A stretch of DNA of 64,000 nt from Planctomycetota bacterium (lineage in GTDB: Bacteria > Planctomycetota > UBA8742 > UBA2392): the NCBI GenBank assembly GCA_019636215.1, contig JAHBXZ010000012.1:62001-126000 (forward strand), in the 5' to 3' direction. This document shows, one piece after another, positions 21,378 to 60,174 of the stretch; position 1 is the stretch's first letter; each line of letters starts with the position of its first letter. Under the pieces are notes generated by a model. The model did not search any database. It had not been told where the DNA came from and saw nothing but the letters and a program-made list of their open reading frames with translations. The translations under genes were made by a program, and so were the position numbers.

Positions 21378-24300
21378 ATGAGCGCAGAAATGCTTGCCAA
21401 GTATCCCAAGGGCATCACGGTCGGGCTGGATGTCGGCAGCACCACGGTCAAGGCCGTGGTGATGGACCCGGCCACGGATGCCATTTTGTGGTCGGAGTAC
21501 CGCCGCCACGAGACGCGCCAGCCGGAAAAGACCCACGAGTTCCTGAAAGAGATCACCGCGGCGTTTCCGCTGCCGAACGAGAAAATCCGCATCTTCATCA
21601 CCGGCAGCGGCGGCAATTCCCTGGCCCCGCTGTTCGGTGCCAAGTTCGTTCAGGAAGTCAACGCGGTGTCACTGGCGGTCGAGAAGCTTTACCCGGAAGC
21701 CGGCAGCGTGATCGAGCTTGGCGGACAGGACGCCAAGATCATCATCTGGAAAGAAGACAAAGGCGGCAAACGCAAGATCCCCAGCATGAACGACAAGTGC
21801 GCCGGCGGCACCGGCGCCGTGATCGACAAGATCAACGCCAAGCTGAAGATCCCGGGCGACATCCTGCGCCAGTTGAACTACCACGGCGTGAAGCTGCACC
21901 CGGTGGCCGGCAAGTGCGGCGTGTTCGCGGAAACCGACATCAACGGCCTGCAGAAGCAGGGCGTGCCCGCGCAGGAACTCATGGCCTCGCTGTTTGAGGC
22001 GATTGTTCAGCAGAACCTTTCGGTGCTTACGCGCGGCAACACGCTGCGCCCGACGGTGCTTCTGCTGGGCGGCCCGAACACCTTCATTCCAAGCATGCAG
22101 CAGGCCTGGAAGCACAACATCGCCAAGCTGTGGGAAGAACGGAAGTTCCCGCTGCCTGAGGGCAAGAAGGGCGAGGACCTGGTTGTGGTGCCCGACAACG
22201 CCCAGTACTTCGCGGCGATCGGTGCCGTGCTGTACGGCAAGAGTGAAGACGAAGAAATCGCCCGGTTCACTGGCATTGAAGCCCTGACTTCGTACATCAG
22301 CGGCGGGCGCGACGCCATGCGTAACGCCAGCGGCGGCGGGCCCCTGAGCGAATCCGAGCAGGACCTTGCCGATTTCAAGCAGAAGTACACAGTGGCCAGC
22401 CACAAGTTCCCCGAGTTCGGCCCCGGCGAAGTTGTCGAAGGCTGGGTCGGCATCGACGGCGGCAGCACCAGCACCAAGGCGGTGCTGCTGAACAAGAAGG
22501 GCGAGCTGATCGGGGCGTTCTACCAGCTTTCCAAGGGCAACCCGCTGCAGGACACCAAGGAAGTAATGGGCGGCCTGCGCGACAGCATCGAGAAAAACGG
22601 CGCGACACTCAAGGTGATGGGCGTTGGCACCACCGGCTACGCCAAGGACATCCTGAAGGACACCATCGGTGCCGACGTGGCGCTGGTGGAGACGGTGGCG
22701 CACACCCAGGCAGCGCTGCATTTCTACAAAGACGTCGACGTGATCGTGGATGTCGGCGGCCAGGACATCAAGGTGATCATGCTGAAGAACGGCCGCGTCG
22801 CCGACTTCAAGCTGAACACCCAGTGCAGCGCCGGCAACGGCTACTTCCTGCAGTCCACGGCCGGCAAGTTCGGCCACCCCGTCGAGAAATTCGCCGACAT
22901 CGCGTTTTCCGCCGACAGCCTGCCGATCTTCAGCTACGGCTGTGCGGTGTTCATGGAAAGCGACATTGTCAACTTCCAGCAGCTGGGCTGGGAACCGCAG
23001 CAGATCATGGCGGGCCTGGCGCACGTGCTGCCCAAGAACATCTGGCTGTACGTGGTACAAGAGCCCAACCTGGCCAAGCTGGGCCGGCGCTTCGTGCTGC
23101 AAGGCGGCACCCAGCGCAACCTGGCGGCCGTCAAGTCCCAGGTCGACTTCATCAAGAGCAAAGTGCCCGACGCCGACGTGATCGTGCACAAGTTCTGCGG
23201 CGAAAGCGGCGCCATTGGCTGCGGCATTGAGGCCATTCGCGTTACCCAGCGCCACGGCCACACGCACTTCATCGGGTTTGATTCGCTGCTGGGCCTCAAC
23301 TACAGCAGCAAGCGCGACGAATCGACCCGCTGCTACTTCTGCAAGAACAAGTGCCTGCGCACGTTCATTGATACGCAGACGCCCTCGGGCGACAACCGGC
23401 GCTTCATCATTGCCACCTGCGAAAAGGGCACGGTCGAAGACGTCAACGAGATGCGCAAGATCAAGGGCAAGCTCGATGACATGAAGAAGGCCAACCCCAA
23501 TTACGTAGAGGTTGCGGCCAAGAAAGCGTTCGACAGCTACAAGCCCGAAGTCGTGGTCAAGGATCTCAAAGTCGGCTTGCTGGGCAAACTTGGCATGTCG
23601 CGCGTCAAGCAGCAGCTGGAACGCCGCGCGAAGCTGAAGGATTACAAGCTCGGCCTGCCCAAGGCTCTGAACATGTACAACACCGGCCCGTTCTGGTCGG
23701 CGTACCTGGAGTCACTGGGCATCCCGGCCAAGAACATCATCTGGTCGGACTACACCAACGAGGGCATGTACAAGGAAGGCTCGCGCCGGGGCAGCATTGA
23801 CCAGTGCTTCCCGGCCAAGGTCAGCCTGGCACACGTGCACAACCTGCTGTACCGCAAGCAGGTCAACGCGATCCTGTTCCCGATTCCCAACACTCTGCAG
23901 AGCGACCTGACGCACCTGCTGGCGTCCTGTGCCTGTCCGACGGTCACGGCCACGCCCGAAGTCGTGAAGGCCGCCTTCACCAAGGAAAGCGACCTGTTCG
24001 GTGAGAAGGGTGTGGAGTACTGGGACCCTGTCGTTGACCTGTACATCCCGTCACTGGCGGAAAAAGAACTCTACGAGTTCTTTCACGAGAAGTTCGGCAT
24101 CACCAAGGACGAAAACGCGGCAGCGGTCAAGGCCGGCTACAAGGCCATGGACGAGTACAAAGAAGAGCACCTGCGCAAACCCGCCCGCGCGACGCTGGAT
24201 AAACTCAAGCGCGAGGGGAAGATTGGCGTGGTGCTGCTGGCACGGCCTTACCACAACGACCCCGGGCTGAACCACGAGGTCACAGAAGAGTTGCAGAAGA

Positions 24301-24824
24301 TGGGCTATCCCATCTTCAGCCTGGACAGCCTGCCGATTGAAGAAGACATCCTGCACGAGGTGTTCGGCGACGACGTAAAGAGCGGGCGTATCCCGCACGC
24401 GATGGCAATCACCGATGTGTGGAAGAACGCCTACAGCACCAACAGCGCCCAGAAGCTGTGGGGTGCCAAGTATGTGGCCCGTCACCCGAACCTGGTGGCA
24501 CTGGACCTGTCCAGCTTCAAGTGCGGCCACGACGCGCCGATCTATTCAGCCGTGGAGGAAACAGTTTCGGTCAGCGGCACGCCGTACTTCACCTTCCACG
24601 ACATCGACGAAAACAAGCCGACCGGTGCCATCAAGATCCGCACGGAAACGATCGACTACTTCCTCAAGCGCTACATTGAGGACATGGCCGACCGCAGCAA
24701 CAAGCAGACCAGGTTCATGGAGATGCTGGAACAGAAGAAGCAGGAACTGCTTGCCCGCAAAGGCGCGGCGCAGCAGACCGAGCAAGGCAAGTCAGACCCG
24801 GAACTGGCTGCCGTAAGCAGCTGA
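21378..24824 (+). CDS. Double BadF/HgdC-type acyl-CoA dehydratase activase with DUF2229 region
   Basis: 1,148-aa protein with two ASKHA ATPase domains of the BadF/BadG/HgdC family (about residues 10-310 and 355-630), followed by a DUF2229-type region to the C-terminus. Such ATPases carry a [4Fe-4S] cluster and use ATP hydrolysis to drive electrons into a low-potential partner (2-hydroxyacyl-CoA dehydratase or benzoyl-CoA reductase type). The presumed cluster Cys are in both heads: C141 and C180, C483 and C522. Each pair is 39 residues apart, the spacing I recall for the glutaryl-type component A. A C-x2-C-x3-C motif (C652, C655, C659) opens the third region. Family members are often about 1,400 aa and continue into a dehydratase-like part; here that part is the separate gene at 26227. 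The physiological substrate is unknown. Confidence 0.9.
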   Translation: MSAEMLAKYPKGITVGLDVGSTTVKAVVMDPATDAILWSEYRRHETRQPEKTHEFLKEITAAFPLPNEKIRIFITGSGGNSLAPLFGAKFVQEVNAVSLAVEKLYPEAGSVIELGGQDAKIIIWKEDKGGKRKIPSMNDKCAGGTGAVIDKINAKLKIPGDILRQLNYHGVKLHPVAGKCGVFAETDINGLQKQGVPAQELMASLFEAIVQQNLSVLTRGNTLRPTVLLLGGPNTFIPSMQQAWKHNIAKLWEERKFPLPEGKKGEDLVVVPDNAQYFAAIGAVLYGKSEDEEIARFTGIEALTSYISGGRDAMRNASGGGPLSESEQDLADFKQKYTVASHKFPEFGPGEVVEGWVGIDGGSTSTKAVLLNKKGELIGAFYQLSKGNPLQDTKEVMGGLRDSIEKNGATLKVMGVGTTGYAKDILKDTIGADVALVETVAHTQAALHFYKDVDVIVDVGGQDIKVIMLKNGRVADFKLNTQCSAGNGYFLQSTAGKFGHPVEKFADIAFSADSLPIFSYGCAVFMESDIVNFQQLGWEPQQIMAGLAHVLPKNIWLYVVQEPNLAKLGRRFVLQGGTQRNLAAVKSQVDFIKSKVPDADVIVHKFCGESGAIGCGIEAIRVTQRHGHTHFIGFDSLLGLNYSSKRDESTRCYFCKNKCLRTFIDTQTPSGDNRRFIIATCEKGTVEDVNEMRKIKGKLDDMKKANPNYVEVAAKKAFDSYKPEVVVKDLKVGLLGKLGMSRVKQQLERRAKLKDYKLGLPKALNMYNTGPFWSAYLESLGIPAKNIIWSDYTNEGMYKEGSRRGSIDQCFPAKVSLAHVHNLLYRKQVNAILFPIPNTLQSDLTHLLASCACPTVTATPEVVKAAFTKESDLFGEKGVEYWDPVVDLYIPSLAEKELYEFFHEKFGITKDENAAAVKAGYKAMDEYKEEHLRKPARATLDKLKREGKIGVVLLARPYHNDPGLNHEVTEELQKMGYPIFSLDSLPIEEDILHEVFGDDVKSGRIPHAMAITDVWKNAYSTNSAQKLWGAKYVARHPNLVALDLSSFKCGHDAPIYSAVEETVSVSGTPYFTFHDIDENKPTGAIKIRTETIDYFLKRYIEDMADRSNKQTRFMEMLEQKKQELLARKGAAQQTEQGKSDPELAAVSS

Positions 24825-24859
24825 TCCGGGCTTTGTGCGGGAAGTGAAGGCGCTAGACT

Positions 24860-24883
24860 CCTCCGCTTTGCGGAGGCACGAAA
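24860..24883 (+). promoter_or_regulatory. Hairpin sequestering the ribosome-binding site of the next gene
   Basis: A perfect 7-bp stem CCTCCGC/GCGGAGG with a TTT loop (24860-24876) includes the Shine-Dalgarno GGAGG (24872-24876), 7 nt before ATG 24884. In the RNA the ribosome-binding site would be base-paired. This suggests regulated or dampened translation of the coiled-coil/PDZ gene relative to the activase. There is no T-run, so it is unlikely to be a terminator. Confidence 0.55.
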
Positions 24884-26194
24884 ATGGACAAGGCGACAAC
24901 AGGCGCGGTACTGGGAACGATTCTCGGCCTTCTGGCCGGCATCGGCGGCATGGTCATGTTCGGTGCCGCCCGTGACACCGCGTCTGAGCGCGACCAGCTG
25001 GAAGAAAAGCTTGCCCTTCAGGCCGGCGACCAGGCCGCGCAGAAGGATGAAATCAGCCGCCTGAAGGCCGAGCTTGACCGTCTGCGCAACGATGCCGTGC
25101 GCGCCCGCGAGGGCACCAAGGAGATTGCCGACGGCTATGACCGTTTGTCGGAAGACAAAGCCGCAGCCGAGGAACGCGCCCGCAAGCTCAAGGACGAGCT
25201 CGACAAGCTCAAGGGCGGTGGGGCCGAAGCGGCGCGCCAGAACGAGGCCCGCATTGCCGAGCTTGAAAAACTGCTGGAAGAGAACGGGATTCTGGCCCAC
25301 CTTTCGCCCGAGGAAATCCAGCGGCGCATGACGCTGCACAAGGACGCGTTTGAGCTGGCGTTCAGCACCAAGGACAAGAAGAAGACTCTGGAAGCCCTGC
25401 GCGAAATGCAGCGACTGGGCCCGGCGGCCTATGACGAAGCCATTTCCATGTGGAAGAAAGTGGCAGAAGATTTCGGCATGAATCCGTTTGGCCAGGGACC
25501 GGGTACGCTGGGGCTCAACTTCCAGGAATACACCTCGTTGATTTCAAGCTACGGCTTGTTGCAGAAAGGCCTGACCGACCCAGGCGTGGACAGCGCTTTC
25601 CGCATTGCGGCCCTGTACGGCGTTCCCTGGTGGACCAGCGAAAGTGGCGCCGACCGCGCCAAACTGGTGGGCGATCTGCTGCAGACCGTCAAGGGTTACG
25701 AGGCCGGCGTGGCGATAGAGGCACTGCGCGACATCCAGGACCCCTCGACCACGCGCTATCTGTCTGAATACCTGCTGCGCAACACCGACGACGGGCCGGC
25801 CCGCATGGCCGCAGTCAATGCGCTGCAGCGCAAGAACACCGACGACGCCTGGGCGGCGATTGAACACACCGCCAAGAACGACCCTGACGAGAAAGTGCGC
25901 CGTCACGCCCAGGCCGCACTGGCCGCGCGCAACGTGGCCGTGGAAGGTGTGCTGATCACCTGGGTAGGCGAAAACAGCCAGGGATCGCTGGCCGGCATCA
26001 AGGTCAACGACATCCTGACCCATTACAACGGCGTGCGGATCAAGACGCTGGAAGACGTAAACCGCGCCAAGCAGTCGGTGGCGCCGGACCAGACTGTAAC
26101 TGTGCTTGTGAACCGGGCGGGCGAAGAGGTTTCGCTGCAGCTCGGGCCGGGAACCATCGGGATCAACGGCCAGGCCGTTGCCCCAAGGAAGTGA
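24884..26194 (+). CDS. Membrane-anchored coiled-coil/PDZ protein
   Basis: 436-aa protein with one N-terminal membrane segment (about residues 7-28, Gly/Leu-rich). A long Glu/Lys/Arg-rich coiled coil follows (about 32-130), then a helical region with HEAT-like pairs (about 140-350). It ends in a PDZ-like domain containing GENSQGSLAGIKVNDILTHYN and TLEDVNRAK (about 360-430). The topology probably places most of the protein outside the cytoplasm. No catalytic residues are apparent, so a scaffold or adaptor role is inferred. It lies between the two activase-related genes on the same strand, 59 bp after one and 32 bp before the other, and is likely to be in the same transcript. Its ribosome-binding site is inside a hairpin. 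Confidence 0.8.
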   Translation: MDKATTGAVLGTILGLLAGIGGMVMFGAARDTASERDQLEEKLALQAGDQAAQKDEISRLKAELDRLRNDAVRAREGTKEIADGYDRLSEDKAAAEERARKLKDELDKLKGGGAEAARQNEARIAELEKLLEENGILAHLSPEEIQRRMTLHKDAFELAFSTKDKKKTLEALREMQRLGPAAYDEAISMWKKVAEDFGMNPFGQGPGTLGLNFQEYTSLISSYGLLQKGLTDPGVDSAFRIAALYGVPWWTSESGADRAKLVGDLLQTVKGYEAGVAIEALRDIQDPSTTRYLSEYLLRNTDDGPARMAAVNALQRKNTDDAWAAIEHTAKNDPDEKVRRHAQAALAARNVAVEGVLITWVGENSQGSLAGIKVNDILTHYNGVRIKTLEDVNRAKQSVAPDQTVTVLVNRAGEEVSLQLGPGTIGINGQAVAPRK

Positions 26195-26226
26195 CCCAGG
26201 GACGCAAACGGACCGAAAGGGCGAAC

Positions 26227-28185
26227 ATGACACCGAACGACGTGATGGACAAACAGCTCAACCTTGATGCCCAGCAGGAGGCAGAGCTCAAGCAGTACGA
26301 GGAGCAACTGCGCAAGGAACTCGGCATCGAGGCCGAGGACACCCGGCACTTCACGCGGCCTGAGGAACGCCCGTTCCTCAAGCAGACTCGTGAGTCCACC
26401 ACCATCCTGTTCGGCGGCCTGACCGTCGCCCACGACCAGCTGATCCAGCAGGCCGTTGCGGGCCTGGGTTACAAGGTGGAGCCGCTGGAAGTGCCCGACA
26501 ATGCGGCACTCAGCATCGGCAAAGAGTTCGGCAACCGCGGCCAGTGCAACCCCACGTACTACACCGTGGGCAACCTGGTGAAGTACCTGCAGAACGTGCA
26601 GAAGGAAAAGGGCCTGACCACCCAGCAGATCAAGGAACAGTACGTGTTCCTGACTGCCGGCGCCTGCGGCCCCTGTCGCTTCGGCATGTACGAGGCCGAG
26701 TACCGCAAGGCCCTGCGCGACAGCGGCTTCGACGGCTTCCGCGTACTGTTGTTTGAACAGAACCAGGGCATCAGCCAGGCCAGCGGCGACGCCGCGGCCG
26801 AAGAAGGCGGCATTGATTACAGCAAAGACTTCTTCATGGGCCTGATCAAGGCCCTGATGGTCGGCGATGTGCTGAACGACATGGGTTACCAGCTTCGCCC
26901 GTACGAGCTCAAGAAGGGCGAAACCGACCGCGTGCTGGAAGAAGCCAAGAAGCTGGCAGGCGACGCGCTGCGCGAAGGCGACAAGATTGAGACGGCGCTG
27001 AAGGACATCCGCAAGATGTTCAACGCCATCGAGTGCGACTTCACCCGTGTGAAGCCCAAGGTCAAGATCACCGGCGAGTTCTGGGCCATGACGACCGAAG
27101 GCGACGGCAACTACAAGATCGGCCGCTGGCTGGAGAGCGAAGGCGCGCAGGTGCAGGTCGAGCCCGTCAGCACCTGGGTTGACTACCTGCTGTACATCGC
27201 CAAGCACGACATCATGAAGTCCTGGGGCCTGCCGGACAAAGACGGCAAGGTCAGCAAGGCCAAGCAGCTCAAGAGCTGGGCGTTGACCGGCGCATTGAAG
27301 ATTTACTTCCGCAACAAGTACGACAAGTACCGCAAGCTGCTGGGCATGAAGCCGTTTGCCCTGCCCGACCAGGGCAAGATCCACAAGCTGGCCCAGCAGT
27401 ACTACAACATTGACCTGCGTGGCGGCGAAGGCCACATGGAAGTCGGCAAGAACATTTACGCCGTGATCGCCAAGAAGGCGCACATGGTGATCAGCGTCAA
27501 GCCGTTTGGCTGCATGCCCAGCACGCAGAGCGACGGTGTCCAGAGCAAAGTCGTCAATGACTACCCGGACTGCATCTTCATCCCGATTGAAACCAGCGGC
27601 GACGGCGAAGTTAACGTCAAGAGCCGCGTGCAGATGAAGCTGTACGAGGCCAAGGTGCGCTGCCGCGAGGAGTTCAGCCGCACACTGGACAGCTTCGGCA
27701 TCACCGTGCAGCAGTTCCGCCAGTACGTGGACAGCCACAAGGATCTGCGCGATCCGTTCCTTGAACTGCCGCACGAAGAAGTCGGCGTGGCGGCAAACCT
27801 GGTGCACAAGGTTGCCAAGGCGCTGAAGGCGCAGCAGGTGAAGGACGCCAAGAAGGCTTCCAGGCTCAGTGTCCAGGAAGTCGAACGCCTGGCCCGCGAG
27901 GCCGCGGCGGCAGACGGTGTCGTGATCAAGGAAGTGAAGGAAGAAGCGGCCGGCCATGGCCATCACCACGACCATGACCACGACCACGACCACGAAGGCG
28001 GTTCCTGCAGCAGCCACGCGCCCAAGGCCGAAAAGGAAGGCGAGTGCGGCGACGGCGGCTGCCCCAGCTGCGACGACAGCCTGCCCGGCGAACAGAAGGA
28101 TCGTTCCCCAGCTGCAACGGTGGCGGCAGCCAAGGCTGCCGTGGCCAGCGAAGGCGGGTGCGGCGACTCCTGCGGTTGCAACTAA
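26227..28185 (+). CDS. Acyl-CoA dehydratase activase partner (dehydratase-like) with His/Cys-rich tail
   Basis: 652-aa cytoplasmic protein resembling the C-terminal dehydratase-like part of large BadF/HgdC-type activases. Conserved Cys-containing segments include GQCNPTYYTVGN, TAGACGPCRFGMYEAEY and KPFGCMPST, which probably bind an Fe-S cluster. The C-terminus is unusual: an alternating His-Asp run (H577, H579-581, then every second residue to H589) is followed by about 60 residues with seven Cys (for example GCPSC, GCGDSCGC). Such tails occur in Ni/Zn/Cu-handling proteins, so metal binding or storage is inferred. ATG 26227 is chosen because AAAGGG precedes it at good spacing; a GTG at 26191 is also in frame. 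The two activase genes together reconstitute the long family architecture. A strong terminator follows. Confidence 0.83.
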   Translation: MTPNDVMDKQLNLDAQQEAELKQYEEQLRKELGIEAEDTRHFTRPEERPFLKQTRESTTILFGGLTVAHDQLIQQAVAGLGYKVEPLEVPDNAALSIGKEFGNRGQCNPTYYTVGNLVKYLQNVQKEKGLTTQQIKEQYVFLTAGACGPCRFGMYEAEYRKALRDSGFDGFRVLLFEQNQGISQASGDAAAEEGGIDYSKDFFMGLIKALMVGDVLNDMGYQLRPYELKKGETDRVLEEAKKLAGDALREGDKIETALKDIRKMFNAIECDFTRVKPKVKITGEFWAMTTEGDGNYKIGRWLESEGAQVQVEPVSTWVDYLLYIAKHDIMKSWGLPDKDGKVSKAKQLKSWALTGALKIYFRNKYDKYRKLLGMKPFALPDQGKIHKLAQQYYNIDLRGGEGHMEVGKNIYAVIAKKAHMVISVKPFGCMPSTQSDGVQSKVVNDYPDCIFIPIETSGDGEVNVKSRVQMKLYEAKVRCREEFSRTLDSFGITVQQFRQYVDSHKDLRDPFLELPHEEVGVAANLVHKVAKALKAQQVKDAKKASRLSVQEVERLAREAAAADGVVIKEVKEEAAGHGHHHDHDHDHDHEGGSCSSHAPKAEKEGECGDGGCPSCDDSLPGEQKDRSPAATVAAAKAAVASEGGCGDSCGCN

Positions 28186-28258: not shown

Positions 28259-29260
28259 CTACCGCGAAACCACAGTGCCAGCGGGAATGTTGCGCTCGGC
28301 TTCGGCCTGCGGCGCGGGTTTGTCGCCGCCAATCATGCCCGCGGCCAGCATGGCCACAAACACCAGCGCGCCGATCGCCAGCGCGGCGGCCACACCGGTG
28401 ACGATCATCTGGCGGCGCGTGCCGACCCGGAAGTGCTGCTCCAGGCGTTCAAAGTTGCGGGCCTGTTCGCGCTGGATCAGGTTCAGGCGGCTCTGCTGTG
28501 TGCGTTCCAGTTCAGCCTGGTGGCGACGCTGGCTGGCCAGCGCCTCCTGCCCGGCCTTGATCGCACCGACTTGCTGGCGCAACTGGGCGCGCTGGTACCG
28601 TGCCAGGTTCTCGACCATGCCCTGCATGCGTGCGCCCTTTTCGGCGTCCTGCGTCACCAGGGTTTCCACCATGACCTTGACCTGGTCGCTTTGCTCGCGC
28701 GCGGCGTTGTTGCCGGCCTCAAGCTGGCTGGTCAGTTGTTCCAGGGCCCACATCTGCTTGCGGGCGGTTTCGGGCAGGTTGGCGGCGGCCTTGACGAACT
28801 CGGGCAATGGTTTCAGCGCGTCCACAAACTGGCGGTTGGCCTCGGCCTGCTCGTCCAGAGCCAGTTTCATGGCGGCCAGGGCGCGGGTCTGTTCTTCGCT
28901 GCTGGGAATCACTTCGCGCAGCATTTGGGGCAGGTTGGCCAGGGTTTCAATCAGGCGCGCATTGCTGAGTGTCTGGGCCTGAAGGCGCTGGCCCAGTGAC
29001 CGCACATGCGAACCCAGGTCTTCCAGTCCGCTCTTGATCTCCACCACGGCTCGGGTGCGCACGGAATAGCCCGGCGATTCGGCCGGCACGCGGGCCAACA
29101 GCGCGCTGTTCAAGGTCGATAGTTCCGCCAGCTGCACTTCCGACCGGTCTTCCACCAGGATCGGGCTGACCTCGGGGTCGTCGCTGGGAAGGGTGTAGGG
29201 TGTTTCAACGGGCGCGCCGGATTTGTTGCGCCGGAACCAGCGTGTGATGCGTTGCAGCAT
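28259..29260 (-). CDS. Tail-anchored coiled-coil protein
   Basis: 333-aa protein, not assigned to a family. It starts MLQRITRWFRRNKSG. A long helical/coiled-coil region rich in Gln, Glu and Arg (about residues 60-270) is followed by a single hydrophobic segment (about 285-312) and a short polar tail. It should therefore be anchored by its C-terminus with the coiled coil in the cytoplasm. ATG 29260 is chosen over an in-frame ATG at 29293 because GGAGAG stands at ideal distance before it. It follows the PII gene on the same strand after a 95-bp gap and is the last gene of the minus-strand cluster. A role as membrane scaffold for its neighbours is speculation. Confidence 0.75.
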   Translation of the reverse strand: MLQRITRWFRRNKSGAPVETPYTLPSDDPEVSPILVEDRSEVQLAELSTLNSALLARVPAESPGYSVRTRAVVEIKSGLEDLGSHVRSLGQRLQAQTLSNARLIETLANLPQMLREVIPSSEEQTRALAAMKLALDEQAEANRQFVDALKPLPEFVKAAANLPETARKQMWALEQLTSQLEAGNNAAREQSDQVKVMVETLVTQDAEKGARMQGMVENLARYQRAQLRQQVGAIKAGQEALASQRRHQAELERTQQSRLNLIQREQARNFERLEQHFRVGTRRQMIVTGVAAALAIGALVFVAMLAAGMIGGDKPAPQAEAERNIPAGTVVSR

Positions 29261-29354
29261 TGGCCTCTCCTGCATGGGTGCGGGCACGCCCATGGCGTGC
29301 TGCAGGATTCATCGGCCTGTGCGGGGTGCAAACTTGAGCAGCGCCGATACGCCC

Positions 29355-29690
29355 TCAGATTGCATCGGAGCCGTGTTCGCCGGTGCGGATGCGGATTACG
29401 TCGTCCAGTTTCAGCACCAGCACCTTGCCCACACCCACGGAATCCGTGCCGGCGGCCTTCATTACCGCGTCAATGGTGGGTTGCAGGAAGTCGTCATTGA
29501 CGGCGATTTCCAGCTTCAGCTTGCGGAACATCTCGATTTCCAGCGCGCTGTCGCCGACCTCGGCCTTGCCGCGCTGGTGGCCGGTGCCCAGCACTTCGCT
29601 GATCGTGAACCGGAACACCTCTGCCTGTGCCAGCGCGTCTTTCACGGCATCCAGCTTCTCGGGGGCGATGATGACCTGGACCAGCTTCAT
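29355..29690 (-). CDS. PII-family signalling protein (atypical T-loop)
   Basis: 111-aa trimeric PII (GlnB/GlnK-type) protein. Starts MKLVQVIIAPEKLDAVKDAL and ends VIRIRTGEHGSDAI, matching the family's C-terminal signature; the B-loop segment VGVGKV is a variant of GDGKIF. PII proteins sense ATP/ADP and 2-oxoglutarate and bind target proteins through the T-loop. Here Gln39 and the Lys equivalent to Lys58 (Lys57) are kept, so 2-oxoglutarate binding is plausible. The T-loop has no tyrosine: position 51 is Glu, so GlnD-type uridylylation is excluded. One residue is deleted near position 56. No amtB or glnA is adjacent. ATG 29690 overlaps the stop codon of the ImpE-like gene (ATGA), so translation is coupled. 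Confidence 0.92.
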   Translation of the reverse strand: MKLVQVIIAPEKLDAVKDALAQAEVFRFTISEVLGTGHQRGKAEVGDSALEIEMFRKLKLEIAVNDDFLQPTIDAVMKAAGTDSVGVGKVLVLKLDDVIRIRTGEHGSDAI

Positions 29691-30754
29691 GGGGCCTCCG
29701 GGAAGTCCACGCGCTCAATGCGCACGACGGGTATGAAGCCGTCGTCGGCACGCATGGCGCGAATGCCCACGCCGACGCTGATGTCCGGCGCCACCGGGCG
29801 CACCAGCGTGCTGGTGCCCTGGCGTACTTTGTCGCTTTGGGCGAATTCGGTGAACACATAGAACAGCGGCATCAGGCCGCTGGTCGTGCTGCCGTCGCGC
29901 AGGCTGACCACAGTACCCAGCGCGGCCGCCGGTTCCGCGAACTCGATCGAGCGAATGGTCGAAAACGGCACAAAGTGCAGTTCGCCGTCGATCACAAGTT
30001 CCAGCGCAGCCGCGGTCAGCGTGTCGGCGTCCTGCAGGCTTTCCACGCGCTGTTCCTCAGTGGTTGACCCGCCGGGCACACGCAGCGTAAGCGTGGCTGG
30101 TTGCGGGGCCAGCCTTGGCCCCTGCTGCATCAATTCAACCGCCTGCACGAAGTTGCGCGCCAGTAATGCCAGGTCGGCGCGGGCTTCCTCGGGCAGCATG
30201 GCGTACCAGCGCGTAATGGCGTCGGGTGTGTCCCGCGACAATCCGGGCTCGACAATCAGGCGCAGCAGCTCGGGGCGCAGCATGCGGAACAGCGCCAGCT
30301 GGGCCAGGCGCTGGCGGTCGGATTCGGGCAACTTGCCGGCCTGGGCGTCGGACAGCAGCTTCTGGTACTGGGCGGCGTCGAACGTGAACCAGCGGCGGCG
30401 CACCGCCGAAACGAATTCGGCGGCCACGCCTTCGTCTTCGGGCATGGACTCGTGCGCGGCACGGATATGCGGAAACGCGTCCATGTGGCGGCCCTGGCGG
30501 TACAGGGCTCGTGCGTACAGCAGGTGGGCCGCGCCGTTGTCTTCATCGCGCGCGATTACGGATTGCAGCCGCGCCGTGGCATCGTCCAGCTGGTCGCGGT
30601 CCAGCGCGATTCCCGCCAGGTTCAGGTTGGCTGCGGTGTGTCCCGGAAAGTGCTCCAGAATCTGCCGGTACAGCCCTGCCGCGCCGTCGGCATCGCCGCC
30701 CTGGTGCAGGGCAAGCGCACGGTAGAGAGCTTCTTCAGCCTGCTCGGAGTTCAT
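29687..30754 (-). CDS. TPR protein with ImpE/TagJ-like C-terminal domain
   Basis: 355-aa cytoplasmic protein. The N-terminal part contains TPR-like repeats (about residues 1-90, for example GLYRQILEHFPGHTAANLN). The C-terminal part resembles ImpE/TagJ, the accessory protein of some type VI secretion systems: FVPFSTIRSIEFAEP (from residue 261) followed by VSLRDGSTTSGLMPLFYVF matches the family pattern of FVPF-IR-I-F then a LRDG strand. No other T6SS gene is in this window, so the domain may serve as a sensor or adaptor here. ATG 30754 is used because it overlaps the upstream stop as ATGA; an ATG five codons earlier is less likely. It overlaps the PII gene in the same way. Confidence 0.72.
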   Translation of the reverse strand: MNSEQAEEALYRALALHQGGDADGAAGLYRQILEHFPGHTAANLNLAGIALDRDQLDDATARLQSVIARDEDNGAAHLLYARALYRQGRHMDAFPHIRAAHESMPEDEGVAAEFVSAVRRRWFTFDAAQYQKLLSDAQAGKLPESDRQRLAQLALFRMLRPELLRLIVEPGLSRDTPDAITRWYAMLPEEARADLALLARNFVQAVELMQQGPRLAPQPATLTLRVPGGSTTEEQRVESLQDADTLTAAALELVIDGELHFVPFSTIRSIEFAEPAAALGTVVSLRDGSTTSGLMPLFYVFTEFAQSDKVRQGTSTLVRPVAPDISVGVGIRAMRADDGFIPVVRIERVDFPEAP

Positions 30755-31782
30755 GCCTGGGCGCCCCATCGAACCCGGTGATAAAGCCTGGTGGCAAGGC
30801 CGTCAAACACCATCAGCCCGCCCAGCATCGATGGCCAGAAGTAAGGATAGAGGTCGCCCCAGATCAGCCAAAGTGAGGTCGCGGCCACGCCGGCAGTGTT
30901 GGCCAGCACGGCGGACAGAAACAGCGGCCGTGCGAACTTGTAACCCAGCACCAGCCCCAGCACTGCCCCGGCCCCCAGGCCGATGAACGAGAACAACTCG
31001 TTGCCGGTGCCAAGAAAGACTCCGCCCCCGGCGATCATCCCGCCCAGGATCATGCCCGCCATGGTGGTGTTGCTGACTACGGCCGCCAGCAGCAACTTCG
31101 GCCCCAGCCATGCGCCAACTGCGGCAGCCAGTGCGGCCGCGCCCCAGGTGATCCAGGGGTCAAGCCCGGCAAAAAAGCAGGCGGCAAAGGCCACTCCGCC
31201 GAACAGTGCTGCCCACAGGGCGCGCACGAACAGCGCCATCAGGATCAGCCCGAAGCCGCCGATCACCAGCGCAGCCAGGGTGGCCAGCCGCCGGTAGTTG
31301 GCAAAGTCCGTGCCGGCGCGACGCCGTATGTCTTCGCGCAGGCCTTCTACGGTCAGGGGCAGGTTCTCCAGGCCGGGTTCATCGGGACTGGCGGTCTTGC
31401 CGGGCTCCTTGAGCTTGCGCTGGCGGTCTTTCAGGTCGCGCATCCGTTGCTGCAGTTTCTCGCGGTCTGCGACCAGTTGTTCGACATCCTGGGCCGACTT
31501 TGCCTCTTCTTCATTCAGCAGCCCGCTTTGCTGGATCACCTGCTTGAGGTGCCGTGCTTCGACCAGCGTTCCGACCAGCGACGCGCCCACGCAAAGCACG
31601 GTGGCAAGAATCAGCCAAAGCCAGGGCAGGTCGGTCAGCTTGGCGGCGTCGGGCAGGGCCTGGCGCTGGACGTGAACGTTCTGCTCGAGTTCGATCTCGG
31701 TGATCGACTTCGGGTCAACGCCCCCAAAGGGGTCGCCCAGGGTCGTAGAGCCGGGGCCCTTCTTTGTGCCGCTGTCGCCCAT
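30751..31782 (-). CDS. Polytopic membrane protein with cytoplasmic coiled coil
   Basis: 343-aa integral membrane protein of no family I recognise. A polar N-terminus (about 50 residues, with GGVDPKSITEIELEQN) precedes TM1 (LPWLWLILATVLCVGA). A charged coiled-coil segment (about 75-135) follows, then about six to seven hydrophobic helices rich in Gly and Ala (from about 165 to 335). It starts 3 nt after the prkA stop and its own stop overlaps the ImpE-like start (ATGA), which fixes it as part of one operon. A membrane dock or channel for the neighbouring PrkA, ImpE-like and PII proteins is possible but only inferred. Confidence 0.75.
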   Translation of the reverse strand: MGDSGTKKGPGSTTLGDPFGGVDPKSITEIELEQNVHVQRQALPDAAKLTDLPWLWLILATVLCVGASLVGTLVEARHLKQVIQQSGLLNEEEAKSAQDVEQLVADREKLQQRMRDLKDRQRKLKEPGKTASPDEPGLENLPLTVEGLREDIRRRAGTDFANYRRLATLAALVIGGFGLILMALFVRALWAALFGGVAFAACFFAGLDPWITWGAAALAAAVGAWLGPKLLLAAVVSNTTMAGMILGGMIAGGGVFLGTGNELFSFIGLGAGAVLGLVLGYKFARPLFLSAVLANTAGVAATSLWLIWGDLYPYFWPSMLGGLMVFDGLATRLYHRVRWGAQA

Positions 31783-31785
31783 GGG

Positions 31786-34068
31786 TCAGTGCGCCCGCTT
31801 CTCGATGTAGTAGAGGACGATGGGCTTTCCGCACTCAAAGCAATAGCCGTACGTGCGGTCGAGGTTCTCCATCAGGGTTCTGGCCGGGCTGTGGGGGCCT
31901 TCGCCTTCTTCCTTCAGGTGTTTGTCAAGTTCCGCCCGCGAGTTGCACTTTTCCAGCTGGCGCTTGATCTGCGCCCAATTGATCTGGTCATGCATCTCGC
32001 GGTAAAGGTTGCGGTGCAATTCCTTGTAGACGTCCTTGTAGACCTCGCCAAGGTCGATGGCAGGAGGTTCCTTGGCCGCACCCGCCTTCACGTGACCGGT
32101 GCCGCCGGTCATGGCGTTGGTCAGCCGCGAGACCATGCGGAATCGGAAGAAGTCGCGCTCGTTGTCGTCAACGTTCATCAGGTCCTCGATGCGGCGCAGC
32201 ATCTTCTGGTCGGGTTCCATGTCGGCGCCCGTGACTTCGTTCTTCAGCTTCTCCTTGCGGTTGTAGGCCATCACGTGCTTCAGGTACAGGCGGATGCGTT
32301 TCTCGATATCGCCGGGGTCGACGTTGACCACGCAATTCTCGATCTCGCTGCTGATGATCTCCTCATACCGCTGGCGCAGCACGGCTGTGAATGCGCGGAA
32401 GTCGTGGTAACCGTCGTCGCGCTGGCGTGCCAGGAAGTCGTAGTTTACGGGCCCCTGGTCGACCACGCGGTCCAGCAGCTTGAACACCGCAAAGGGTGTA
32501 ATGCACTCGCTGCTGTCGTCTTCGCAGATGTCAGCGAACACATTCTGAAGAATCCGCGTCGGGATACCGTCCATGCCCTCATGCGGAAACTCGTTGCGCA
32601 GGCGTTTGCGCAATTCGCGTGTCAGGGACTGGCGTTCCCGCGACGAAAGAAACGCCGGGTACTCGCCCGCGTACAGCAGCGCCTTGGCCGGCGGGTGCAG
32701 CTTGGCCAGCACCTGGCGGGCTTCCTCGGTAACGTCGGGCGCGTTGGGCAGGTCGGATTTCTCCAGCCGCGACATCACCGCCCACATGGCCGCCAGTTCG
32801 GTAGTGTGCGGGGCAATGCGGTGATAGCGCCGGGCCTGGCGCAGGCCGCGGTTGTAGATCTTTTCTTCGTCCAGGTAGTTCAGCAGGTACGGCACGTCGA
32901 TCTTGCGCATGCGCGACCGCAGCGCCTTGGAAAGCGGGTCGCCGCGCAGCGCCTGGTACTCGGCCAGGTTGGTGGTGCCCAGGATCATGACGTCCACGTC
33001 GCAGCCAACTTCGCCGAAGTCCATCTTGTGTTCCTCGACGGCGGCCAGCAGGTGCTGAAGGTAGTTGCTCGGCTTCTTGAAGATGTCGCTGTAGTGGACG
33101 ATGCCGCGGTTGCCTTTGACGTACTTTCCGTAGTACCGCACCAGGCTGACGGAACTCAGCAGGTTGGCGATGTACTTGAAGTTTTCGTCAAGCGTGACGG
33201 GGCTGCTGTTGGTCTCCACGTTGCCTTCGGGCGGGATCTTGGCGATTCCCACTCCGCCGCTTTCGCTGAAGTTCAGGCGCTGCACCAGCACATGGTCCAT
33301 GACCTTCAGCCAGTCGCCCTTGTAACGGCGCAGCAGAAAGTCGTAGATCTGGCGCGAGTTGTAATCCAGGTCGCCTTCCAGCACCTTGTGGGGGATCGGC
33401 GACTTGTCTTCCAGGCCGTTCTGCTTCCACAGTTTTTCCAGCAGCTCGCGGCGCGATTTGCGCGGGATCAGCAGCAGCGGGTGTTCATGCAACTGGCTGG
33501 GCAGCACGGCCACGGGGTTGCGTATGCCCGCAACATCGGGATGGCCCGATTGCATGCCAAAGCCCAGCGTTCCGCCTTCGGCGGCATGAAAATCCTTGCC
33601 AAAGCGCCAGGCGAAGCTGTACGTGGCGCCTTCCTCGGTGGCGCTGTAGGCCTCCAGCCCGCGGCAAAGCGTGTCGATGATGCTGGTCTTTGCGGTGCCG
33701 ACCGGACCATGCAGGATGAAGATGCGTTCGCGGCCTTCCTCGCGCGCGCCGGCACGGATGTATTTCACCAGCCGCGCGATCGGGCGCTCCAGCCCGTAGA
33801 TGGCGTTCTTGCCGCCATGGAACGGGTCGTCAAAAATCTTGTAACGACGCACCTGTTCGCCGCTGTCTTCGAAAGTGTCGCTGCCAAAGTAGCGGATCAT
33901 GTCGAATGCAAGCTGGTAGGCCGTGCGGGTGTGGCGGTAAGGGTCGGCACATACCAGGTTCAGGTACTCCGTGAAGCTGCCTTCCCACGCCAGCTCCTTG
34001 AAGCCGGCCTGGTTGCGGCTGACGATGAAGTCGCTGACGCTGGCTTCGTTGATTTCCGGGCGTGCCAT
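31786..34068 (-). CDS. prkA: PrkA-family AAA+ serine protein kinase/ATPase
   Basis: 760-aa PrkA (YeaG-like) protein. The N-terminal AAA domain carries Walker A GPVGTAKT (residues 121-128), and the PrkA C-terminal domain follows (conserved IPTRILQNVFADICED and GYHDFRAFTAVLRQRYEE). Family members are stress- and starvation-linked serine kinases, and an ATP-dependent protease activity has also been proposed. It is longer than the usual 640-690 aa. The extra C-terminus includes a DksA-like ribbon segment, TYGYCFECGKPI, with only one CxxC pair. ATG 34068 is preceded by AAGGAG at good spacing and is preferred to ATG 34092. The usual partners YeaH and SpoVR are absent; instead it heads an operon with a membrane protein, an ImpE-like protein and PII. 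Confidence 0.9.
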   Translation of the reverse strand: MARPEINEASVSDFIVSRNQAGFKELAWEGSFTEYLNLVCADPYRHTRTAYQLAFDMIRYFGSDTFEDSGEQVRRYKIFDDPFHGGKNAIYGLERPIARLVKYIRAGAREEGRERIFILHGPVGTAKTSIIDTLCRGLEAYSATEEGATYSFAWRFGKDFHAAEGGTLGFGMQSGHPDVAGIRNPVAVLPSQLHEHPLLLIPRKSRRELLEKLWKQNGLEDKSPIPHKVLEGDLDYNSRQIYDFLLRRYKGDWLKVMDHVLVQRLNFSESGGVGIAKIPPEGNVETNSSPVTLDENFKYIANLLSSVSLVRYYGKYVKGNRGIVHYSDIFKKPSNYLQHLLAAVEEHKMDFGEVGCDVDVMILGTTNLAEYQALRGDPLSKALRSRMRKIDVPYLLNYLDEEKIYNRGLRQARRYHRIAPHTTELAAMWAVMSRLEKSDLPNAPDVTEEARQVLAKLHPPAKALLYAGEYPAFLSSRERQSLTRELRKRLRNEFPHEGMDGIPTRILQNVFADICEDDSSECITPFAVFKLLDRVVDQGPVNYDFLARQRDDGYHDFRAFTAVLRQRYEEIISSEIENCVVNVDPGDIEKRIRLYLKHVMAYNRKEKLKNEVTGADMEPDQKMLRRIEDLMNVDDNERDFFRFRMVSRLTNAMTGGTGHVKAGAAKEPPAIDLGEVYKDVYKELHRNLYREMHDQINWAQIKRQLEKCNSRAELDKHLKEEGEGPHSPARTLMENLDRTYGYCFECGKPIVLYYIEKRAH

Positions 34069-34148: not shown

Positions 34149-36743
34149 TTACTTCGGCGGCGGGGGCTTGTTGGCGGAGTCGTGCTTGTCACGCAGGATG
34201 TTATCCGCCATTTCACGGGCCACGCGCTCGGCATCCGTCAGTGGTGGGCGCGGGGTTTCCGGGTTGGGCGCGGCAACGCCCGATGACTGCGACCGGGCCT
34301 CGCTTTCGGCGACCTTGACGGCCTCTTTGGCCAGAGTCTCGGCGCGGTCGCGTTCTTCCACCGACAGCGGCATGGTCTCGGGCTCTTTTTCACCCTTGAT
34401 GCGGCGCACGTACTTCTGCAGCGCGGCGCGGTCCTTCTTGTCCTTGGCTTCGTCGCGGCTCTTCTGTGTGACCACGCGTTGCGGCCATGGAATCTCGACT
34501 CCGAACTCGTCGAACTTGCGCTTGACCCGCTTGCGGTACTCGCGGGCGGCGCCCCATTGCTCGCCGGCGCGGGTCCGCAGCAGTACCCGGATGTTGATCG
34601 CGTTGTCGCCAAAGGAGTCCACCCCGGGCAGGATGATGTCCTGCACCCGGCGGCCCCACACCGCGTCCTGCTGCATCTCGCGTCCCACGGCCTCCAGCAG
34701 CGCCATCACGTCGTCGACGTTTTCTTCGTAGGCAACGCCCACGTCCAGTACGGCGCGCGACCAGATCTTGGTCTGGTTGGTGCTCATGGCAATCACGCCG
34801 TTGGGAATGGTGTGCACATCGCCGTTGACGCTGCGCAGAACGGTGGTGCGCAGGTTCAGGTCTTCCACGGTGCCGCTCTTGCCATTGATTTCAATGACGT
34901 CACCGATGCTGTACTGGCCCTCCAGCAGGATGAAGAAGCCCGAGAAAAAGTCCTTCACCAGGCTCTGGGCGCCAAAACCTACGGCCAGCGACACGCCGCC
35001 GGCGGCCACCAGCAACGGCCCATAGTCGATGTCGAACTGGATCAACGCGAACATGGCCGCGGTAAGGAAAACGACCACGCGCATGGTTGTCATGAACACG
35101 GCAAACAGGGTGCGCGAACGCTGGCGCCGGTAGGCATCGTTGCCGTCGCCGGTGTCCGAACGCCGCATCATGCGTTCCAGGATCGGCGTGCCGGTGCGCT
35201 TGATCAGCCACAGCAGCAGCCAGGCCAGCAGGAACACGGCGGCAATGCGGGCGCCGCGTTCCAGTGCCGTGTAGCCCAGGCTGCGCCAGTACTGCTGGCG
35301 GGTGGTGGGCAGCGTTTCCTGTGCAATCTCCGCAGAGCGTTGCTCCAGCGCCGCCAGCCTGCGGTCAATGACTTCCAACTGTGTCTGGGCGCGCCGGGTG
35401 TCCAGGCGTGCGGCACCCAGCCTCTCGGAGACGGCGTCCAGGCGCTCCTGTTCCGCAAAGATCACCAGCGTTGCGCGCCAGGGCGAGGTATCGGGGTTCT
35501 CCTGCTTCAGGCGCGCCAGTGCCGACTGCAGGCGCTGGTACTCGGCATCGACTTCGCGTTCGACTTCCTGTTTCCCGACCAGCACACGTGACCCGGCAAC
35601 GCGGTCGGCTGCCAGGCGCTTGACCTCGGCGCGGATCGTCTGTTCTTCGGCCTCCAGCAGGTCAATGGCCGCCGACAACCGCTGGTAATCGGCGGACTGG
35701 TTGTTGCGCGGGGCGGGCTCGTTGGCCACCGGCTTCTCTGTGCCCTGGCGGTTGACCAGCCTTTCCTTCACCTTGTCCAGGTCGCGCTCGAGCTGCTCGC
35801 GGTAGTCTTCGCGCAGGTCGATCATCCTCTGGATCTCGCGAAGACGTCCCTGCAGGCTGAAGATCTGGCCGTTGGCCGCGGTGCCGCGGCCTGAACGCCG
35901 GCGCTGCAGTTGCTCCCGGATGGCCGTTGCGGTTGCGGCGATGGATGCCGCGTTGTCGTTCCTGCCCGCCAATGCCAGTGCGGCCGCGGGGGTGTTCTCA
36001 AAATCGCGGCGCTTCTGGGCGGCGGTCTCCAGGGCCACCAGCGCGTCCAGCGCCCGGCGTTCAAAGGCGATGTACGCGCCGAACACGGTTTCACTCAGGT
36101 GGTCGTACTCGTCGATCTTTACTTTGAAGCGCTCGGTGGCCCAGCGCAGTTCCATCTCCAGCTTTTCAACGTCGCTCAGGCGCTCGAACACGCGGCTCTG
36201 GCGTACATCGGCGCGGTCAACGGCATCAGACAGTGTCGCCAGATGGGCAAGTTCTTCCTCGGCGGCCGTGATGGCGCGGGCGAGCTTGCCGACGGGCGCC
36301 TCCGGCCCGGGTTGCAGATCCGCCAGCGCGCCAAGGGCCTGGGCCAGAAGTGCATCGTGTTCGCGGCGCGCGGCCAACTGGGCTGCGGTCGGGCCCATGC
36401 GCGCCACAGGAATGGCGGCGCGGCAGGCCTCAATGCGGGACTTCAGGGTTTCGACGCGCGACTCGGCGGCCCGGGCGGCGGTGTCGCGGGCCTGTTTGTC
36501 GGGGGCGGAAAGACCTTCTTGGGATGCCGCGGCGCGCGCCGTTGCCAAGTCGGACTCGGCCAGCGGCAGGGCATCCTGCAACGAAATCAGCAGCGATTCC
36601 AGCCGCGCACCGTCTTCCTGTACCCAGGGCTCGGGCGGCAGGTCTTCCACCAGTTGCGCAAACATGGCGGGGGCGCCAAGCAGCAGCCCAAGGGCCGCCA
36701 GCAGGCAAAGACAGGTGCCGCGCACGTTGAACCCATGTTGCAT
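34149..36743 (-). CDS. Large MscS-family mechanosensitive channel
   Basis: 864-aa inner-membrane channel protein with an N-terminal signal sequence (LLAALGLLLGAPAMFAQ). A long periplasmic Ala/Arg/Glu-rich coiled-coil domain follows (about residues 30-480), then TM helices from about 500 to 600. The MscS core is clear: a Gly/Ala-rich pore helix, then GDVIEINGKSGTVEDLNLR and the NGVIAMSTNQTKIWSR beta domain. It ends in the alpha/beta vestibule and a charged cytoplasmic tail. This layout resembles MscK/YnaI-type large channels that release solutes on osmotic downshock. Its ATG overlaps the last base of the enzyme I stop (TAATG), so the two are translationally coupled. It ends 80 bp before prkA on the same strand. 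Confidence 0.9.
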   Translation of the reverse strand: MQHGFNVRGTCLCLLAALGLLLGAPAMFAQLVEDLPPEPWVQEDGARLESLLISLQDALPLAESDLATARAAASQEGLSAPDKQARDTAARAAESRVETLKSRIEACRAAIPVARMGPTAAQLAARREHDALLAQALGALADLQPGPEAPVGKLARAITAAEEELAHLATLSDAVDRADVRQSRVFERLSDVEKLEMELRWATERFKVKIDEYDHLSETVFGAYIAFERRALDALVALETAAQKRRDFENTPAAALALAGRNDNAASIAATATAIREQLQRRRSGRGTAANGQIFSLQGRLREIQRMIDLREDYREQLERDLDKVKERLVNRQGTEKPVANEPAPRNNQSADYQRLSAAIDLLEAEEQTIRAEVKRLAADRVAGSRVLVGKQEVEREVDAEYQRLQSALARLKQENPDTSPWRATLVIFAEQERLDAVSERLGAARLDTRRAQTQLEVIDRRLAALEQRSAEIAQETLPTTRQQYWRSLGYTALERGARIAAVFLLAWLLLWLIKRTGTPILERMMRRSDTGDGNDAYRRQRSRTLFAVFMTTMRVVVFLTAAMFALIQFDIDYGPLLVAAGGVSLAVGFGAQSLVKDFFSGFFILLEGQYSIGDVIEINGKSGTVEDLNLRTTVLRSVNGDVHTIPNGVIAMSTNQTKIWSRAVLDVGVAYEENVDDVMALLEAVGREMQQDAVWGRRVQDIILPGVDSFGDNAINIRVLLRTRAGEQWGAAREYRKRVKRKFDEFGVEIPWPQRVVTQKSRDEAKDKKDRAALQKYVRRIKGEKEPETMPLSVEERDRAETLAKEAVKVAESEARSQSSGVAAPNPETPRPPLTDAERVAREMADNILRDKHDSANKPPPPK

Positions 36744-38491
36744 TATCCGAACTCGCTGCTGGGCAGCAGGCGCTCGACCTCTGCCTCCAGCAGGTTGTGA
36801 ATCTCGTCGGCCAGCCCGATGCCCATGGCCTTGTCCGCAAAGGCCTCGGCCTCGGCCACGGTGATGCGCGAAATCAGGGTGCGCAGCTCGGCCAGGCTGG
36901 TCGGCCCCACGCTGAAATCACGCAGGCCGAAACCCAGCAACAGCATGGCAAAGTGGGATTCCCCGGCCATTTCGCCGCACACGCTGACAGGACGTTTTGC
37001 GGCATTGCAGGCCTTGATCACGCCGCGCACCAGGCGCAGCACGGCCGGGTTGGTGTGCTTGAACAGGTTGGCCACGTACTGGTTGTTGCGGTCTACGGCC
37101 AGGGTGTACTGCACCAGGTCGTTGGTGCCGATGCTGAAGAACTGGCTCTCTTCAAGGAAGCTGTCGATGCACACGGCGGCCGACGGGACTTCCACCATCA
37201 TGCCCAGCGGCACGTCAGCGCGGTGCTGGACGCCTTCGCGTGCGAGGTCCTGCTTGACGGTATCGATGATCTGGCGGGCGGCGCGGAATTCCTCAATGCT
37301 GCCGATCATGGGCAGCATCATGCGCGTGGGCCCCAGCGTGGCGCAGCGCAGAATCGCGCGCACCTGGGTGACCAGGAGCTGCGGCTCGCGCAGGCTCAGG
37401 CGAATGCTGCGGCAGCCAAGAAACGGGTTGTCTTCTTTCTCAAGGCCGACCTCTGCGGCGTACTTGTCGGCACCGAAGTCCATGGTGCGAAGTGTCAGCA
37501 CCCTCCCGGCCAATGCCGCATGGGCCTTCTTGTAGACTTCAAGGTGCTGTTCTTCGGTGGGGTGGGCGCCGAACTTGCTGTAGATGAACTCGGTTCGGAA
37601 CAGGCCCACGCCGTCGGCGCCAAGTTCCACGGCGTGTTCGATTTCATCGTCCAGCTCAATGTTGGCGTACAGGTTGACCGCCGAGCCATCTTTGGTCTTG
37701 CGTTCGGCTTTGGCTGCGGCATCGGCCAGGCGCTTTTCGCGCTCGTGATAGCTTTCGCTTTTGGCCTCGTACTTGGCGCGGGTGGCTTCGTCAGGGTTGA
37801 TCAGCACCCGGCCGGTCTTGCCGTCGACAATCATCAGGTCGCCGCCGGACACATCGGACGACATCGTGCCCAGGCCGACCACGGCCGGGATGCCCAGCGC
37901 GTTGGCCAGAATCGCGGTGTGGCTGGTGGGCCCGCCCACGTCGGTGACAAACCCGGCGACGTTGCGTTTGTCCAGTGTGGCGGTCTGGCTGGGTGTCAGG
38001 TCGTGGGCGACCACAATGACCTTGCGCGCGAACTTGCTGATGTTCTGGCCTTGCTGGCCCAGCAGGTTGCGCAGCAGGCGCTTCTGGATGTCGTAGAAGT
38101 CGTTGACACGCTGCCCGAAGTAGCTGTCACCGATTTCCTTGATGGGCTTGATGATCTTCTTGAACACGCGCGAAACCGCATACTCGGGCGTGTAGCGCTT
38201 CTGCTTGATTTTTTCGGGTATCTCGCGGGTGATCATCGGGTCTTCAAGCATGCGCAGGTGCGCGTCAAAGATCAGCCCGACTTCGTCCTTGGCCACCGAA
38301 TGAACGCTGTCGCGGATGTCGCGGACTTCGGCCACGGCCTGTTCGCGTGCGATGCTGAAGCGCTTGAGCTCGACCTCCACTTCATCCTTGCGGATAAAGC
38401 GTTTGGGAATGCGGAACGATTCCGAATCCAGCACGTAAGCCGGGGCGATCGCCACACCTGGCGACACGGGAATGCCGTTCTTGATTTCCAT
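36743..38491 (-). CDS. ptsI: PTS enzyme I (phosphoenolpyruvate-protein phosphotransferase)
   Basis: 582-aa soluble enzyme I that transfers phosphate from PEP to HPr or NPr. The phosphohistidine motif GGPTSHTAI places the active His at residue 191, close to His189 of classical enzyme I. The PEP-binding C-terminal barrel shows LGCRSIRLSLREPQL, GTNDLVQYTLAVDRN and VCGEMAG. There is no N-terminal GAF domain, so it is of the PtsI rather than PtsP form. ATG 38491 is used because GGAG precedes it at good spacing and it gives normal length; in-frame ATGs at 38530 and 38593 would add residues foreign to the family. No HPr or EII gene lies in the window, so the role may be regulatory. Confidence 0.94.
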   Translation of the reverse strand: MEIKNGIPVSPGVAIAPAYVLDSESFRIPKRFIRKDEVEVELKRFSIAREQAVAEVRDIRDSVHSVAKDEVGLIFDAHLRMLEDPMITREIPEKIKQKRYTPEYAVSRVFKKIIKPIKEIGDSYFGQRVNDFYDIQKRLLRNLLGQQGQNISKFARKVIVVAHDLTPSQTATLDKRNVAGFVTDVGGPTSHTAILANALGIPAVVGLGTMSSDVSGGDLMIVDGKTGRVLINPDEATRAKYEAKSESYHEREKRLADAAAKAERKTKDGSAVNLYANIELDDEIEHAVELGADGVGLFRTEFIYSKFGAHPTEEQHLEVYKKAHAALAGRVLTLRTMDFGADKYAAEVGLEKEDNPFLGCRSIRLSLREPQLLVTQVRAILRCATLGPTRMMLPMIGSIEEFRAARQIIDTVKQDLAREGVQHRADVPLGMMVEVPSAAVCIDSFLEESQFFSIGTNDLVQYTLAVDRNNQYVANLFKHTNPAVLRLVRGVIKACNAAKRPVSVCGEMAGESHFAMLLLGFGLRDFSVGPTSLAELRTLISRITVAEAEAFADKAMGIGLADEIHNLLEAEVERLLPSSEFG

Positions 38492-58811: not shown

Positions 58812-58958
58812 CGATGTGCGAAGTTCCGGGTCCTGAGTGCGAAGTGAAGGCACACAGGCCCTGGACACGAAGCGTGAACAGGCACCGAACTTCAACGCAG
58901 CCCGGACCAGACAACCCAAAACGCTGAACTCAGAACTCGCCATCAAGGAACCCAAGCC

Positions 58959-60074: not shown

Positions 60075-60094
60075 CTGAACGAGTCGGCAGTCTT

Positions 60095-60154: not shown

Positions 60155-60174
60155 CTGACTACGGGAACCCGTCC

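Follow-up and report, generated by a model that had tools for sequence, protein, structure and literature searches.

A set of genes that joins a divergent PrkA-family AAA+ ATPase to a PII-family signalling protein lies on the minus strand of the stretch of planctomycete DNA considered here (the window; 64,000 nucleotides of contig JAHBXZ010000012.1, GenBank assembly GCA_019636215.1). This set, prkA2–mem–tprE–pii followed by cc, is real, conserved within one family of Planctomycetota and apparently undescribed, and we suggest tentatively, at a little less than an even chance, that it is a family-specific signalling unit in which an adenylate-sensing PII protein acts on a membrane-linked PrkA2 by way of a TagJ-like adaptor. 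The most telling result is the joint loss in this family of AmtB, GlnD and the PII T-loop that serves them. Signalling proteins of the PII type are among the most widespread, and PrkA/YeaG is a conserved stress ATPase for which, to our knowledge, neither the regulator nor the substrate has been established. A preliminary description of the window had stated that no operon combining PrkA, PII and an ImpE domain was known, and our search agrees with this, as no PrkA–PII or PrkA–ImpE unit is described in the literature we searched (subscription papers and preprints lay outside the search).

Gene order and its conservation within the family

The source genome (G000) is a metagenome-assembled genome (MAG) of an uncultured member of the Planctomycetota (3.99 Mb in 34 contigs, 91% complete), and those relatives that carry names are uncultured Planctomycetota MAGs as well. 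The minus-strand run reads, in transcription order, ptsI, mscS, prkA, mem, tprE, pii and cc, with gaps of −1, 56–80 (depending on the prkA start), 3, −4, −4 and 94 nt, and both the mem–tprE and the tprE–pii junctions are ATGA overlaps. Open reading frames and Pfam matches place the last five genes on the strand and at the positions given in the preliminary description, whose junctions of 3 nt, ATGA and ATGA were also right, while the last gap is 94 rather than 95 nt and the co-directional run has two more genes at its upstream end, ptsI and mscS, than were described.

Gene order was compared in 16 genomes of the family, 15 of which are informative for the full order. Every one of the 16 carries the divergent prkA, and mem, tprE and pii are present throughout, save that the most fragmented assembly, G015, yielded no mem and has its tprE truncated at a contig end. 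The four genes prkA–mem–tprE–pii form an uninterrupted run on one strand in 10 of the 15 informative genomes, and because the order is kept to this extent the association exceeds chance. Pairwise linkage is seen in 14/15 genomes for prkA–mem, 12/15 for mem–tprE, 15/16 for tprE–pii and 10/16 for pii–cc, with tprE–pii the tightest pair (adjacent on the same strand in all but one genome, with a gap of 5 nt or less in ten).

In three genomes (G003, G007 and G011) tprE–pii has departed from prkA–mem, and in a fourth (G012) it is mem–tprE–pii–cc that has departed from prkA; the 4-nt overlap of tprE and pii persists after relocation in G007 and G011. In G005, where the contig is short, pii is divergent and lies upstream of prkA. 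In G014 tprE and pii are split by an oppositely oriented gene for a ParE-like toxin (L035:10627-10920), and in G008 they are separated by 557 nt, a gap of the same size as that in G014. In the ten genomes where it follows pii the cc gene is conserved in sequence, and these include G003, G011 and G012, where tprE–pii sits apart from prkA. The linkage of PII to PrkA put forward in the preliminary description holds as regards the common operon, but pii is linked most strongly to tprE.

Beyond the last gene, the downstream flank on the other strand (hgdA, pdz and hgdB) is also syntenic in genera g1 and g4, and since these flanking hgd genes are syntenic in the closest genera, information comes only from genera that have been rearranged. 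The four genes stay together in g2 and g6 although this flank has been lost there.

Outside the family the prkA–mem–tprE–pii order was not found. Homologs of mem were detected in 15 of 392 planctomycete genomes, all of them in this family and none elsewhere, and the only full-length TprE homolog outside the family is a 29% identical relative (G172) whose gene lies near neither pii nor prkA. Copies of the prkA2 type (43–58% identical) do occur in other families, where their neighbourhoods (L047–L051) contain no pii, mem or tprE, and judging from these sequences the prkA type is older than the module. Conservation of the order among relatives, on which the preliminary description had made its proposal depend, was therefore found, but not across the Planctomycetota–Verrucomicrobiota–Chlamydiota (PVC) group in which it had thought to look; we rejected a wider PVC distribution of the module, as mem occurred only in the family among the 392 planctomycete genomes, and full-length tprE only there apart from the relative in G172.

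A PII protein with a rewritten T-loop

The pii gene (29355..29690, minus strand) encodes a 111 amino acid protein with a clear match to the P-II Pfam family (86 bits against a cutoff of 25, E 2e-24). Its nearest relatives from outside the family are ordinary planctomycete PIIs sharing 56–57% identity, several of which adjoin glnA or amtB-like genes. A phylogenetic tree placed the 16 family PIIs in a single fully supported clade on a long branch, grouped with these ordinary proteins.

The T-loop is rewritten in all 16 proteins (residue table); in the PII of the window the ordinary sequence GRQKGHTEVYRGHEYTVNLLRK is replaced by GHQRGKAEV-GDSALEIEMFRK. The loop is one residue shorter, Tyr46, Arg47 and Tyr51 are lost without exception, and further changes include Arg38His, Lys40Arg and the replacement of Asp88. 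GlnD modifies PII at Tyr51, and GlnK inserts its T-loop to block AmtB (PMC4285133). We found no AmtB over the cutoff and no full-length GlnD in any of the 16 family genomes; both are present in two PII-bearing genomes of a sister family (G018 and G019), which also have amtB-linked PIIs. Compared with GlnK and GlnB proteins that work with AmtB and GlnD, the family PIIs are alike in belonging to the P-II fold family and in keeping Thr29, Arg101, Arg103 and, in most cases, Lys90, whereas they differ in the T-loop and at Asp88, in being encoded with tprE, mem and prkA, and in occurring in genomes with neither partner.

The ligand residues are less uniform. The ATP/ADP residues of PII proteins are Thr29, Lys90, Arg101 and Arg103, and the 2-oxoglutarate ligands are Arg/Lys9, Gln39 and Lys58 (PMC8395244). 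Three of the former are present in 16/16 family PIIs and Lys90 in 15/16 (Arg in G007). The 2-oxoglutarate ligands, which matter for the signal proposed in the preliminary description, are kept in part: residue 9 is Ala in 16/16 (Gln in ordinary planctomycete PIIs), and Gln39 and Lys58 are kept in 13/16 but are His and Arg in genus g2, which makes 2-oxoglutarate sensing by the family PII doubtful.

Most of the family genomes also encode a second, short PII elsewhere (G000:C12:373058-373342, L061, and relatives), which keeps the GRQK start of the T-loop, is without the C-terminal RIRTGE segment and its arginines, and groups across the family in a clade of its own.

The divergent PrkA, the TagJ-like adaptor and the two membrane proteins

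The prkA2 gene (31786..34068, minus strand) encodes a 760 amino acid protein from a start at 34068 that is common to relatives, with an upstream ATG at 34092 also possible. It carries the AAA_PrkA domain (137.6 bits) and the PrkA C-terminal domain (130.1 bits; cutoff 25 each) as well as a Walker A motif, GPVGTAKT, and is homologous to the solved PrkA structure 9xip (E 3e-92), all of which it has in common with PrkA/YeaG proteins encoded with YeaH (DUF444). It differs from these in falling far below the NCBIfam PrkA equivalog cutoff (87.8 against 576 bits), in sharing only 36% identity with the canonical PrkA of the same genome, and in having no DUF444 gene at its locus. The ordinary prkA lies at G000:C12:~179500-184600 (L060:5529-10570), where it is followed by a TPR/zinc-ribbon gene and then the DUF444 (YeaH) gene, and the genome thus holds two PrkA systems.

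TprE (29687..30754, minus strand; 355 amino acids) matches the Pfam ImpE family at 59 bits (cutoff 25, E 6e-16) in addition to TPRs. Its AlphaFold model has a predicted local distance difference test score (pLDDT) of 93.6, and the best fold match in the PDB is HsiE1/TagJ (4uqx; Foldseek E 2e-12), which extends over some 317 columns along the full length of the protein and takes in both the TPR and the ImpE beta-barrel regions. TagJ, an ImpE-family adaptor of the type VI secretion system (T6SS), binds TssB of the sheath as well as the AAA+ ATPase ClpV (PMC4239648).

The mem gene (30751..31782, minus strand) encodes a 343 amino acid protein with a predicted N-terminal cytoplasmic segment, one transmembrane (TM) helix, a coiled coil and a bundle of several TM helices. 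No Pfam family scored over its cutoff in any of the 15 members, and the all-helical model (pLDDT 69, moderate confidence) found no fold match in the PDB or in the viral library. The last gene, cc (28259..29260, minus strand), encodes a 333 amino acid protein, predicted to be a cytoplasmic coiled coil with a C-terminal TM anchor, for which no Pfam family was found except a T2SSF match in one member. In G013 (L037:4621-5907) cc runs into the C-terminus of type II secretion system protein F, which is either a fusion or an assembly error.

Proposed mechanism and alternatives

The signalling unit we propose would work as follows. The PII trimer would still bind ATP or ADP, and its T-loop would have been reshaped, once AmtB and GlnD had gone, to suit a new partner, for which the co-translated TagJ-like TPR–ImpE protein is the likeliest candidate. 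The nucleotide state would set the contact between PII and TprE, and TprE might in turn recruit or release PrkA2 at the polytopic membrane protein, and perhaps also at the tail-anchored coiled-coil protein; we suggest this step by analogy with TagJ, through which an AAA+ ATPase is docked on a target. As output, PrkA2 would use ATP to remodel a substrate in step with the adenylate state of the cell, and perhaps, in most genera, with 2-oxoglutarate too. Remodelling is assumed here in place of kinase signalling because neither kinase nor protease activity was detected for Bacillus anthracis PrkA (PMC13001217). We infer nucleotide binding, each of these protein contacts, the direction of control and the substrate, whereas the gene order with its junctions and conservation, the T-loop change, the absence of AmtB and GlnD and the TagJ fold are observations.

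Support for this unit comes from the conserved order and pairwise linkage of the genes, the survival of the tprE–pii overlap after relocation, the rewriting of the T-loop, the retention of the ATP/ADP residues, the loss of the usual PII partners, the TagJ fold and the links between PrkA and nitrogen status seen elsewhere, where Escherichia coli yeaGH is bound by NtrC and required in nitrogen starvation (PMC4664914), and Pseudomonas stutzeri prkA and glnK–amtB appear in one nitrogen-responsive gene list (PMC2820453). Several observations weigh against it. Gene order at this locus is conserved in general among the closest genera, and, with prkA apart from tprE–pii in 4/15 genomes, the genes need not always share one operon. 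The loss of AmtB and GlnD may have other causes, because both are also missing from the nearest genome of another family (G016), in which no PII was found either. The family genomes have kept a GlnE-like protein (about 1040 amino acids, two GlnD_UR_UTase domains), which could be the PII target, and the biochemistry of PrkA itself is disputed. If the unit works as we propose, it may also represent a new kind of PII output, in which a T-loop of the AmtB/GlnD type has been swapped for an adaptor-binding loop and a membrane-docked PrkA-type AAA+ machine is switched by ATP and ADP; we consider this possible, with the balance of probability against it.

That GlnE-like protein is the basis of an alternative in which PII acts on glutamine synthetase adenylylation, or on some other remote target, and the operon reflects co-expression only. 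GlnE is a classical PII target, but this explanation, which we think unlikely, would leave both the coupling of relocated tprE and pii and the rewriting of the T-loop without a reason. We rate somewhat lower the suggestion of the preliminary description that PII, responding to energy and 2-oxoglutarate, directly gates PrkA at the membrane. The common operon with its 3 nt prkA–mem junction, the retention of Gln39 and Lys58 in most of the family PIIs and the nitrogen links of PrkA in E. coli and P. stutzeri would all suit direct gating, but Ala at residue 9 throughout and the Gln39His and Lys58Arg changes in g2 would not, nor would the closer linkage of pii to tprE and the separation of pii from prkA in the four relocated genomes, to which the divergent pii of G005 can be added. 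That description had also overlooked the T-loop, the missing AmtB and GlnD, the ordinary prkA–DUF444 operon, and a T6SS in the family that is relevant to any ImpE protein.

The T6SS raises the alternative that TprE is simply its TagJ, with the operon coupling sheath recycling to PII and PrkA. A complete T6SS is encoded in the source genome at G000:C31:~187600-212600 (L235 and L236), with TssA, B, C, E, F, G, H/ClpV, J, K, L and M, Fha, TagF, Hcp and VgrG, and TssC was detected in 16/16 family genomes but not in three of the four genomes from other families of the class (G016, G018 and G019). TprE, with its TagJ fold, is the sole full-length ImpE protein found in the source genome. However, Trp171, Pro181 and Glu/Asp273 of TagJ, described as invariant TssB contacts (PMC4239648), are all replaced in 15/15 TprE sequences, and the TssC N-termini read in four genomes are SLLDEIM or SLLEEIM, which places them in the Vibrio cholerae class with its SLL(D/E)EI motif. 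The T6SS class marked by the TssC LLDEII motif excludes TagJ, with one known exception (PMC4239648). A tagJ was not found within the T6SS cluster, nor any T6SS gene within the prkA operon. TprE resembles HsiE1/TagJ over its full length but differs from it in its TssB-binding residues, its location and the class of T6SS present in the family. As neither these residues nor the T6SS class fit, we rejected a T6SS role as the principal explanation and regard it as distinctly improbable. Least probable of all, in our judgement, is that these are neutral neighbours, slowly rearranging housekeeping genes which are expressed together and form no functional complex. The flanking ptsI, thioesterase, CxxCxxCC protein and hgd genes are likewise syntenic in the close genera, but the cohesion of the four genes in g2 and g6 after loss of the downstream flank, and the retention of overlapping starts, argue otherwise.

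The lineage can be viewed as a natural experiment in which a PII has lost its standard partners, keeps its nucleotide-site residues, has a changed contact loop, and is coupled to a gene resembling an AAA+ adaptor. This makes two questions testable, namely how PII gains new targets and what controls PrkA, and it suggests that a TagJ-like protein may act outside type VI secretion.

Flanking genes and other features of the window

Upstream of prkA2 the window encodes a mechanosensitive channel of the MscS type whose N-terminal region is long (mscS, 34149..36743, minus strand; Pfam MS_channel domains) and, as the first co-directional gene of the run, enzyme I of the phosphotransferase system (ptsI, 36743..38491, minus strand; NCBIfam PTS_I_fam, 580 bits against a cutoff of 342). 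The operon probably extends to include both, as they are on the same strand with gaps of −1 and 56–80 nt. In g1, g4 and two genomes of g2 the mscS gene separates ptsI from prkA, and it was not found at this position in the other family genomes; where it is missing, ptsI is directly upstream of prkA. Most family genomes have ptsI ahead of prkA, and in G006 the HPr gene is directly ahead of ptsI.

Adjoining the operon at 21378-28185 is a convergent cluster with a coenzyme A (CoA)-activase gene (BcrAD_BadFG plus DUF2229), a gene for a PDZ/HEAT protein and one for a large protein whose tail is rich in His and Cys, and this cluster is syntenic in genera g1 and g4. At 57528-62825 there is a tandem of four similar exported proteins, three of which have the mature-region start KEELVTLP in common, and this has the appearance of a recent array of paralogues.

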